Shown: piece by piece, positions 30,894 to 34,388 of the stretch
Layout: each line of letters opens with the position of its first letter
Position numbering within the stretch: the first letter of the stretch is position 1
DNA from: Bacteroidota bacterium
Lineage (GTDB): Bacteria > Bacteroidota > Bacteroidia > Bacteroidales > SKPS01
Direction: 5' to 3'
Assembly (NCBI GenBank): GCA_022709695.1
Contig: JAKLII010000008.1
Coordinates: 62,001-126,000, forward strand
DNA length: 64,000 bases
Notes under the pieces: generated by a model
The model's database searches: none
The model's input: only the letters and a program-made list of their open reading frames with translations
Told to the model about the DNA's origin: nothing
Position numbers and translations under genes: made by a program

Positions 30894-31787
30894 CTATATT
30901 CTTTCTGCAACCCTGAGCCTGGCACTCCGGGCCCGGTTGTTACGCGTAATTTCCTGAGCGGTGGGAACAACCGCCTTCCGGGTGATAAGCCGGAAGGGCA
31001 GCGACCTGTTCCCGTAGAAATCTGCCTCGGGTTTATCCTCGAAGTTCCCCGACCGCATGAAGTGCTTTACCAACCGGTCTTCGAGCGAGTGGTAGGCAAT
31101 CACCACCAGCCGTCCGCCGGGCTTGAGAAGTGAAGGCACCTGCAGGAGCATCTCCTTCAGGGCTTCGATTTCGTCGTTTACAGCAATGCGAAGGGCCTGA
31201 AATACCTGTGCAAGGAATTTGTGCTCCTGGCCGGATGGGGTAAAGGGTTTTACTGCCAGCACAAGGTCCCCTGTGGTGGCAATAGGTCGTTCTGCCCTGA
31301 TCCTTATAATGCTGGCAGAGAGTTTACGGGCCGATGGCAGCTCGCCGTAATTTCTGAACACAGCCTCCAGTGCCTCAACAGTGTACTCGTTTACCACCCG
31401 TGCTGCATCTGACGTCATCTGCGGATCCATCCGCATATCCAGCCGGGCATCCGTCCGGGTGGAGAAACCTCTGCGCCCTTCATCAATCTGGTGCGACGAG
31501 ATGCCAAGGTCGGCCAGAATGCCGTCCAGAGGGATGGCTTTCAGGTAACGCAGGTATTGGGTGATATACCGGAAGTTGCCGTGTACCATGGTAAGCCGGT
31601 CATCAAGGGGGGCATGGGCATGCGCCTCCGGATCCTGATCCAGTGCGATAAGCCTGCCTCCTTTCAGCGCCGACAGGATGGCACGGGAATGTCCGCCACC
31701 GCCGAAGGTGAGGTCAGCATAGGTACCCCCTTCACGAAGGGAGAGCCCTTCCAGGCTCTCTTGCAGCATTACGGGATTATGGTACAT
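30894..31787 (-). CDS. rsmH: 16S rRNA (cytosine-1402 N4) methyltransferase
   Basis: SAM-dependent methyltransferase of 297 residues that modifies C1402 in the ribosomal P site. The start is ATG 31787, giving the family N-terminus MYHNPVMLQESLEGL; the longer frame upstream lies over mraZ. The SAM site is DLTFGGGGHSRAIL; DLGISSHQID and the C-terminal VVIAYHSLEDRLVKHF are diagnostic. It overlaps the mraZ end by 11 bp. Confidence 0.96.
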   Translation of the reverse strand: MYHNPVMLQESLEGLSLREGGTYADLTFGGGGHSRAILSALKGGRLIALDQDPEAHAHAPLDDRLTMVHGNFRYITQYLRYLKAIPLDGILADLGISSHQIDEGRRGFSTRTDARLDMRMDPQMTSDAARVVNEYTVEALEAVFRNYGELPSARKLSASIIRIRAERPIATTGDLVLAVKPFTPSGQEHKFLAQVFQALRIAVNDEIEALKEMLLQVPSLLKPGGRLVVIAYHSLEDRLVKHFMRSGNFEDKPEADFYGNRSLPFRLITRKAVVPTAQEITRNNRARSARLRVAERI

Positions 31788-32259
31788 CTTGCGGGGGGGT
31801 GGCTTCGGTGTTTTGCTGCCCCATGACCTCCTCTGCCAGTTCGGCAAACCGCTCTGCACCCTCCCCGATGAACCGGTTGTAACGGTTCTTATCCCAGATC
31901 TCAATCCGGTTTACCATCGATGTGAGTACCACTTCTCTGCCTACTTCGCCAAACTGCATCAGGTCCCTGGGGATCAGTATGCGCCCCGCTGTGTCCAATT
32001 CCACCGTCTTTACACCATCCATGAAGATCCGGATGAAGTCAGCGTTCTTCTTCACAAACCGGTTCAACCGGCTTACTCCGCTGCTCTCCTTCACCCACTC
32101 GGCCATCGGATATAGCTCAAGGCACTTGTGAAAAACGCTCTTCTTCATGATAAACCCCTGCTCAATGTGCGGCGACAGCTGCTTTTTGAAAGCAACCGGA
32201 AGCATGAGCCGACCTTTTTCATCGACTCTGCATTCGTACACACCAATCAGATTTACCAT
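31777..32259 (-). CDS. mraZ: Transcriptional regulator MraZ
   Basis: First gene of the division cluster; 160 residues from ATG 32259, where the conserved MVNLIGVYECRVDEKGR begins. Two AbrB-like DNA-binding repeats are visible: DEKGRLMLPVAFKK near the N-terminus and DTAGRILIPRDLMQ in the second half. In E. coli MraZ binds GTGGG repeats spaced 10 bp apart and represses its own operon. Here GTGGTAA pairs with the same 10-bp period lie just upstream of the predicted promoter, which suggests autoregulation with a slightly changed site. Confidence 0.95.
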   Translation of the reverse strand: MVNLIGVYECRVDEKGRLMLPVAFKKQLSPHIEQGFIMKKSVFHKCLELYPMAEWVKESSGVSRLNRFVKKNADFIRIFMDGVKTVELDTAGRILIPRDLMQFGEVGREVVLTSMVNRIEIWDKNRYNRFIGEGAERFAELAEEVMGQQNTEATPPQDVP

Positions 32260-32283
32260 ACTGCAGAAGCGCCTTTCGGGGTG

Positions 32284-32291
32284 TAAAGATA
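32284..32291 (-). promoter_or_regulatory. Predicted mraZ -7 promoter element
   Basis: TATCTTTA on the minus strand, one base from TAnnTTTG, lies 24 bp before the mraZ ATG. The GTGGTAA pair is 8 bp upstream, covering where -33 contacts would fall, a sensible place for a repressor. Confidence 0.5.
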
Positions 32292-32299
32292 GATCAGAA

Positions 32300-32316
32300 T
32301 TACCACTTTTTACCAC
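32300..32316 (-). promoter_or_regulatory. MraZ-box-like repeat upstream of mraZ
   Basis: Minus strand reads GTGGTAAAAAGTGGTAA: two GTGGTAA units with a 10-bp period, the geometry of the E. coli MraZ site (GTGGG with 5-nt spacers). Assignment is by analogy. Confidence 0.6.
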
Positions 32317-32443
32317 TATTTTGTCAAATGGTTACGTTTGTGCCCGTTTTTGTTCATAACTGAGGAAAGAAGCACGTCATTTGTAAATGGATAAAAGAAA
32401 TCAACATACAATAAATCAATAAAATAGATGGAATTATAATATA

Positions 32444-32460
32444 GTGGTAAAATGTGGTAA
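32444..32460 (+). promoter_or_regulatory. Second MraZ-box-like repeat, facing the aminolipid genes
   Basis: Plus strand reads GTGGTAAAATGTGGTAA, nearly identical to the pair before mraZ and with the same 10-bp period, but oriented toward the divergent acyltransferase gene. It lies 53 bp upstream of a TACCTTTG -7 element. Confidence 0.55.
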
Positions 32461-32513
32461 CTGTTTACAGATTGTTAATAAAAAAATCGATTTTTTCTGT
32501 GGATTTAATCCTT

Positions 32514-32521
32514 TACCTTTG
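32514..32521 (+). promoter_or_regulatory. Predicted -7 element of the acyltransferase operon
   Basis: TACCTTTG matches TAnnTTTG exactly; a T-rich stretch 19 nt upstream gives TTTT in place of TTTG. The ATG at 32543 follows 21 bp later, which favours this start over the TTG at 32534. Confidence 0.5.
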
Positions 32522-32542
32522 CCATGCTGAAAATTGAGAACT

Positions 32543-33421
32543 ATGCAGGATACTGCCGGTACCACTCCTTCCCGTGAAGGGGATGGTTTGGTCATTACAC
32601 GTAAAACCATTGACATCCGCAAGGTATTTGGCAGCAAGAACCAGAAACTTGCAGCACTGATGCCCGGCTTTGTCTTCAGGTATATCCGCAGGATCATCCA
32701 TGAGGATGAGTTGAACGATTTCCTGTGGAAAAACAGGGATAAATCCGGGCTGGACTTTGTGGAGGTTGCCCTGAAGAATTTTGAGGTGCAGCTTGAGGTG
32801 CACGGTCTGGAGAACCTGCCTGCGCAGGGCAGGTGTACCGTGGTATCGAATCACCCGCTGGGAGGGCTCGATGGGATTGCTCTGATGCACATCCTTGGGA
32901 ATGTCCGAAAAGATGTGGTAACACCCGCTAACGACCTCCTGATGTTTCTTCCCAACCTCCGTAGCCTCTTTGTGCCCATCAACAAGCACGGCCGCAACAA
33001 CGAGAATATCGCACTCATCAACAGCGCTTTCGGATCCGACAACCTGATGCTGTACTTCCCTGCCGGTCTCTGCTCCAGGAAACAAAAGGGAGGCGTCATC
33101 TGTGATCTGGAGTGGAAATCGACCTTCATCAGCAAGTCAGTACGCAATCAGCGTACGGTCATCCCGGTCCACTTTAAGGGAAATAATTCACAGTTCTTCT
33201 ATAACCTTGCCAGGTTGCGCAAGTGGCTGGGTATCAAGGCTAATATCGAAATGTTCTACCTGGTGAATGAAATGTTCAAACACCGCAAACGAAAATTTGT
33301 CATCACCATCGGCACCCCAATCCCCCCATCGTTTTTCGATCGCTCAAAAAAGCCGGCTGCATGGGCCGATTGGGTGAAAAGGGAGGTGTACCGGCTTGGT
33401 AATGAACCCATTGTCGGATAA
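32543..33421 (+). CDS. Lysophospholipid-type acyltransferase (GlsA/OlsA-like)
   Basis: A 292-residue acyltransferase of the PlsC-like group often labelled putative hemolysin. Block I reads SNHPLGGLDG, so the catalytic His104 and Asp110 are five residues apart rather than the textbook four. YFPAGLCSR matches the glycerol-3-phosphate-binding block. The next gene is an OlsB/GlsB-like N-acyltransferase. In Bacteroides thetaiotaomicron the adjacent pair glsA/glsB makes glycine lipids: GlsB N-acylates, GlsA O-acylates. That is the likely role here, though the head amino acid is not readable. A TACCTTTG promoter and an MraZ-box-like repeat lie upstream. Confidence 0.82.
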   Translation: MQDTAGTTPSREGDGLVITRKTIDIRKVFGSKNQKLAALMPGFVFRYIRRIIHEDELNDFLWKNRDKSGLDFVEVALKNFEVQLEVHGLENLPAQGRCTVVSNHPLGGLDGIALMHILGNVRKDVVTPANDLLMFLPNLRSLFVPINKHGRNNENIALINSAFGSDNLMLYFPAGLCSRKQKGGVICDLEWKSTFISKSVRNQRTVIPVHFKGNNSQFFYNLARLRKWLGIKANIEMFYLVNEMFKHRKRKFVITIGTPIPPSFFDRSKKPAAWADWVKREVYRLGNEPIVG

Positions 33422-33458
33422 TCTAACCTCACATCAACGACCAAAGGAACCCTGCTAT

Positions 33459-34388
33459 ATGTTTCAGGAAATCATACAACCCATATCCCCCGGCCTCATC
33501 GAAGAGGAGCTTTCCAGGGAGGTATTTGTGAAGAATACCAACAACGGGGAAAACCAGATCTACATCATTCACGACCTGAATGCACCCAACACACTAAAGG
33601 AAATCGGGCGACTCAGGGAAATCACCTTCCGGGATGCCGGAGGGGGCACCGGCCTGCCCCTCGACCTTGATGTGTTCGATTCCGGCGAAAAACCTTTCCT
33701 GCAACTCATTGTATGGAATCCTGCTGACCGCGACATTGTAGGGGGATACCGGTTTATCCACGGACGGAATATGCGCCGCGACGCAAACGGATACCCCCTT
33801 TCTCCTACCGCTGAGATCTTCCGCTTTTCCGAAAAGTTTATACGCGATTATCTGCCGGGAACCATCGAACTCGGGCGTTCCTGGGTGCAGCCCAAGTATC
33901 AGCCTTCCAACGATTTCAGAAAAGGGATCTACTCCCTCGACAACCTGTGGGATGGCCTGGGGGGGCTGATTACCGAATATCCTGATGTGGAGTATTTCTT
34001 CGGAAAAATCACCATGTATACCTCCTTTAACGTCAGGGCCCGCGACCTGATCCTTGGGTTTATGAACCATTATTTTGCTGATGACCAGAATCTTGTATGG
34101 CCTTTTGAAGAGTTGAAAGTTTTACCTGAAACCCCTTTCGAACAGCTCAGGCACCATTTTCTCTGCGACAATTACGAGCAGGATTACAAAGCCCTGGTGA
34201 GATATGTGCGCCATTACGGGGAGCAGGTTCCCCCGCTGGTGAATGCCTACATGAATCTCACCTCTACCATGAAAACCTTCGGCACTGCCCTCAATCCCCA
34301 CTTTGGCGATGTGGAGGAGACCGGTATTCTGATCCGCATCCCCGATATCTATCCCGACAAGAAAGAACGCCACCTCAGGCAGGACTGA
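33459..34388 (+). CDS. GNAT-type N-acyltransferase (GlsB/OlsB-like)
   Basis: A 309-residue protein from ATG 33459, which has AAAGGA 10 bp upstream; longer starts overlap the previous gene. The GNAT-like core contains LREITFRDAGGGTG, a VGGYRFIHG strand and ELGRSWVQPKYQ, typical of OlsB-like enzymes that transfer a 3-hydroxyacyl group from acyl carrier protein to an amino acid. With the preceding acyltransferase it would make an ornithine- or glycine-type aminolipid for the membranes. The C-terminal third (about 235-309) extends beyond short OlsB proteins. Confidence 0.82.
   Translation: MFQEIIQPISPGLIEEELSREVFVKNTNNGENQIYIIHDLNAPNTLKEIGRLREITFRDAGGGTGLPLDLDVFDSGEKPFLQLIVWNPADRDIVGGYRFIHGRNMRRDANGYPLSPTAEIFRFSEKFIRDYLPGTIELGRSWVQPKYQPSNDFRKGIYSLDNLWDGLGGLITEYPDVEYFFGKITMYTSFNVRARDLILGFMNHYFADDQNLVWPFEELKVLPETPFEQLRHHFLCDNYEQDYKALVRYVRHYGEQVPPLVNAYMNLTSTMKTFGTALNPHFGDVEETGILIRIPDIYPDKKERHLRQD

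Follow-up and report, generated by a model that had tools for sequence, protein, structure and literature searches.

Paired, outward-facing and helically phased MraZ boxes at the mraZ promoter of Bacteroidia: a candidate looping operator

The region upstream of mraZ in a Bacteroidota genome carries two tandem pairs of GTGGTAA repeats that point away from each other, and comparison with relatives shows that both arrays are real, that they are conserved or recur, and that they face outward in helical phase. We posit that the two pairs probably constitute one two-site MraZ operator for mraZ and the dcw cluster behind it, with both sites acting jointly and most likely held together by a DNA loop. 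MraZ is among the most widely conserved bacterial regulators, and we know of no settled explanation of why it forms rings; a paired and phased operator suggests that the two DNA sites are joined by an MraZ ring or by a pair of rings.

In the window, the whole stretch of 64,000 nucleotides that was analyzed, mraZ (31777-32259, minus strand) is the first gene of the dcw cluster; it encodes a 160-aa protein (PF02381, 1.5e-23; TIGR00242) in which both DxxxR motifs are intact, D13/R17 and D89/R93 being invariant. Its divergent neighbors are glsA, for a lyso-glycine lipid O-acyltransferase (32534-33421, plus strand; NF053697, 3.4e-110), and glsB, for a glycine N-acyltransferase (33450-34388, plus strand; NF053696, 3.6e-132), which match the NCBI models of the GlsA and GlsB enzymes of glycine lipid synthesis in Bacteroides; engB follows this pair, and gldB is convergent behind. 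The divergent mraZ-glsA order (32259-32534) is old, kept in 105 of 152 distinct loci of the order. The proximal box, GTGGTAAAAAGTGGTAA (32300-32316, minus strand), consists of two GTGGTAA units, at 32300-32306 and 32310-32316, separated by AAA, and overlaps the -33 region of the mraZ promoter. The distal box, GTGGTAAAATGTGGTAA (32444-32460, plus strand), has the same unit, period and sequence, its two GTGGTAA units at 32444-32450 and 32454-32460 flanking AAT. Between them lie 127 bp (32317-32443), the proposed loop, equal in length in a congener. The first-pass annotation had given the positions, the letters and the 10-bp period of both pairs, correctly in every respect. These two are the only exact GTGGTAA-N3-GTGGTAA pairs anywhere in the genome of 3,386,724 bases, the window included. 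A wider MraZ regulon in this genome was considered and dropped, with no further exact pair in the 3.39 Mb and the two one-mismatch matches both inside long open reading frames.

By comparison across the class Bacteroidia, the identification of 32300-32316 as a canonical MraZ box of reduced length is well supported. We collected 152 distinct mraZ upstream regions from the window's own order, together with its glsA relatives, then 40 that came for the most part from other orders of the class, at roughly one per family, and a further 79 regions from other orders; family groups are program-assigned labels, and species kinship was handled by collapsing within families alone. Proximal GTGG arrays were present at mraZ in 133/152, 40/40 and 70/79 of these regions, respectively, or about 90% of the loci sampled in the class. 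They comprise two to four [AG]TGG units repeated every 10 bp exactly, in most cases 40-75 bp ahead of the start codon, with the unit consensus AAAGTGG[TG]AA; most relatives have three units and the window has two. Tandem direct repeats with a GTG core and a 10-bp period, placed at the mraZ promoter, are likewise what marks the MraZ boxes of the dcw promoter in E. coli, Burkholderia and Mollicutes, exemplified by the four 7-nt repeats with 3-nt spacers of the Burkholderia site (PMC7761207) and the AAAGTG[T/G] repeats of the Mollicutes sites (PMC8475190). The window departs from these known boxes in having two repeats rather than three or four, in the side of the core promoter element on which the box lies (upstream of the -7 element here, downstream of the -10 element in Burkholderia), and in carrying a second, outward-facing array 127 bp away. 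A TAnnTTT[AGC] motif, which we take to be the Bacteroidota type of -7 element, lies 8-33 bases after the last proximal unit in 84% of 276 loci; across the class a -7 element of the form TATnTTTA stands directly downstream of the arrays, and in the window the putative -7 element of the mraZ promoter, read from the sequence as a TAnnTTT type, is TATCTTTA (32283-32290, minus strand). Three loci (L046, L052 and L092) have their proximal box 150-260 bp before the mraZ start codon, which suggests long leaders or misplaced starts.

The proximal array is accompanied by a second conserved element. TTWT[CT]AACA lies no more than 45 bp from the first repeat in 219 of the 276 loci (79%), as against 13/276 (5%) in a control window, at a spacing of 11-12 bp (or 21 or 31) from the first proximal GTGG unit; TTATGAACA (32351-32359, minus strand), upstream of the proximal box, is a likely copy of TTWTNAACA. 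In 14 copies the sequence is a perfect DnaA box (TTWTNCACA), a hint that the MraZ operator may have a DnaA-like site fused to it. The TTWT[CT]AACA element is missing from distal boxes. The mraZ operator of Bacteroidia can be redefined as TTWT[CT]AACA followed by GTGGTAA repeats, a description that should help to annotate division control in Bacteroidota from the gut and the environment.

The distal box is recurrent rather than universal. Chance is ruled out as its source, because outward-facing GTGGN6GTGG occurs in 4 of 57 divergent mraZ-glsA regions when 0.04 are expected. Of 276 mraZ promoters with a proximal box, 43 have a second box facing outward at 59-127 bp from the first, and by batch the distal box accompanies the proximal one in 16/137 loci of the window's own order (11/132 when five loci obtained through a double-box search are set aside) and in 12/40 and 20/70 loci of other orders, shuffled sequences predicting 0.3 in the first set and 0.06 in the second. 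An additional array with the same orientation is seldom seen (3, 0, 0 and 1 cases); control patterns with other periods or letter order gave counts near zero at mraZ upstream regions. When 393 genomes were scanned for two outward-facing arrays, mraZ promoters were the only places where they occurred beyond a background equal to that of a reversed-pattern control. The pair is commoner than chance and has recurred at mraZ in evolution, across 21 or more families. Of mraZ promoters with a proximal box, just 12-30% carry the strict distal box, an undercount in that the strict pattern misses degenerate boxes, and from this frequency the distal box is dispensable in most species. Could it then be a functionless accident, or a relic of rearrangement or inverted duplication? 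Its absence from most relatives is what such an origin would predict; its frequency far above shuffles and controls, its phasing, and its conservation within the genus make this reading very improbable. In the one other species of the genus that was compared, the distal site reads GTGGTAAATAGTGGGG and the box-to-box gap is 127 bp, as in the window, despite a spacer that has no indels and an ungapped identity of 47%. The upstream regions of relatives bear out the earlier proposal that both pairs are MraZ sites: the proximal repeats are conserved class-wide and the distal ones form a recurrent, phased minority, which together make an MraZ-type identity well supported.

The same proposal had a second part, that one regulator would tie cell division and wall synthesis to aminolipid synthesis, and this part found no support in the comparison. 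A distal box dedicated to MraZ control of glsA-glsB, with engB behind, is suggested by its location between mraZ and glsA, facing glsA, by its conservation in the congener, by the frequency of the divergent gene order, and by family f99, in which the box abuts TAACTTTG before glsA (L075; similar in L176). We nevertheless consider it quite unlikely, and rejected the aminolipid regulon as the reason for the distal box. Five results agree that the second box belongs to mraZ and not to glsA, as far as comparison can tell. A second box is present in 10 of the 105 divergent glsA loci of the order and missing in the other 95, and none of the 57 glsA loci away from mraZ has one in the 450 bp upstream that were searched, so that the box is not kept with glsAB irrespective of position. 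Elsewhere, the neighbors of distal boxes are unrelated genes, encoding an alpha/beta-hydrolase, RuvB, a class-III aminotransferase, a FabI-type reductase, ribosomal protein L21 (rplU) and lipoproteins, and in L336 the distal box is present even though the upstream gene is co-directional with mraZ and there is no divergent gene at all. A -7 element follows 1 of the 43 distal boxes, under the background of 8-16%, as against 84% of proximal boxes. In the window, the distal pair does not overlap the promoter of the gene it faces: the putative glsA -7 element TACCTTTG (32514-32521, plus strand), read from the sequence, is 53 bp downstream of the distal box. The two species of the genus share the 127-bp gap between boxes but not the spacing of the distal box from the glsA promoter (56 vs 98 bp). 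The passages of a review (PMC11631085) that were consulted mention no MraZ regulation of GlsA/GlsB, and the comparison leaves the link to glycine lipids, attractive as it is, without support. As a separate observation on family f99, the distal box (L075, 160-190; L176, 158-190; outward-strand positions relative to the mraZ start) abuts a -7-like TATAACTTT before glsA, and there MraZ might touch the divergent promoter.

The spacing of the two boxes is what points to joint action. Measured between inner edges, the gaps cluster at about 59, 69-71, 82-84, 92-95, 102-105, 115-119 and 127 bp, the window's 127-bp gap being in phase with this ladder. When the period (11.2 bp) and the phase were set from the first 24 gaps, the last batch's 19 gaps agreed with the prediction (V = 0.78, P < 5e-6), and the helical phasing expected of a looping operator pair, at 11.3-11.4 bp, was thus replicated out of sample. 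Gaps within a family are related and were collapsed to 29 values from 21 families, for which the best period, found by scanning, is 11.4 bp (R = 0.65, P < 2e-4); one gap per family gives 11.3 bp (R = 0.70), and the period is unchanged under three definitions of the gap and three of the unit. We rejected the idea that the ladder is an artefact of the turnover of 10-bp units, with R of 0.24 at 10 bp as against 0.65 at 11.4 bp. Repressor loops formed at lac in vivo have 11.1-11.6 bp per turn (PMC1762422), and an in vivo helical repeat of about 11 bp has been given for the lac loop (PMC8501960); the ladder matches this in vivo range of 11-11.6 bp. Cooperative binding of MraZ on the same face of the DNA, through contacts between rings or through wrapping and with no closed loop, would be expected to give helical phasing equally well, and MraZ does assemble into rings and high-molecular complexes (PMC7761207). 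One ring on linear DNA would seem too small to span 59-127 bp, however, and a period of 11.4 rather than 10.5 bp fits looped, supercoiled DNA in vivo, so we regard binding without a loop as unlikely.

In the looped operator that we favor, an MraZ ring would bind the proximal array, which overlies the mraZ promoter, and, if E. coli and Mycoplasma (PMC8475190) are a guide, repress that promoter. The distal array, opposite in orientation and on the same helical face 127 bp off, would raise occupancy of the proximal array in the manner of an auxiliary lac operator, most likely with both sites joined through a short DNA loop, as their spacing suggests. The bridge could be (i) a single MraZ ring or (ii) two rings, which the opposite orientation of the boxes would suit if a two-fold axis related the rings to each other. 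A change in glsA expression, if there is one, would be a side effect. Extended to the class, the proposal is that MraZ rings bridge opposed operators and loop the DNA, giving phased autoregulation in a sizeable minority of Bacteroidia independently of the neighboring gene; here we lean toward the idea only slightly.

MraZ boxes are known, as are looping operators for LacI and other repressors, and the paired, phased MraZ operator would be the new part; the literature searched, covering few subscription papers, contained no description of a second outward-facing, phased MraZ site or of an MraZ loop. The lac operon offers the closest likeness, a main operator at the promoter and a remote one, with an in vivo spacing that repeats about every 11.1-11.6 bp (PMC1762422, PMC8501960); it differs in the protein family and in the ring architecture of MraZ, and the loop proposed here is read from comparative spacing. 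The ladder itself supplies ready natural variants for testing whether rings join the two sites.

A distal box may in some lineages make up for a short proximal array. Within the window's own order, the proximal array has two units in 11 of 16 loci with a distal box versus 25 of 121 without (p = 2e-4; p = 0.005 at the family level), and the first batch from other orders shows the same trend (7/12 vs 4/28, p = 0.008). The last batch shows none (3/20 vs 7/50, p = 1), and compensation is at best lineage-dependent. In the window, where the proximal array is of the two-unit kind, AAACGGG, AAACGTA and ATTTGAC stand at 10-bp spacing on the minus strand of 32317-32350, between the proximal units and TTATGAACA, and look like the remnants of decayed extra MraZ units.
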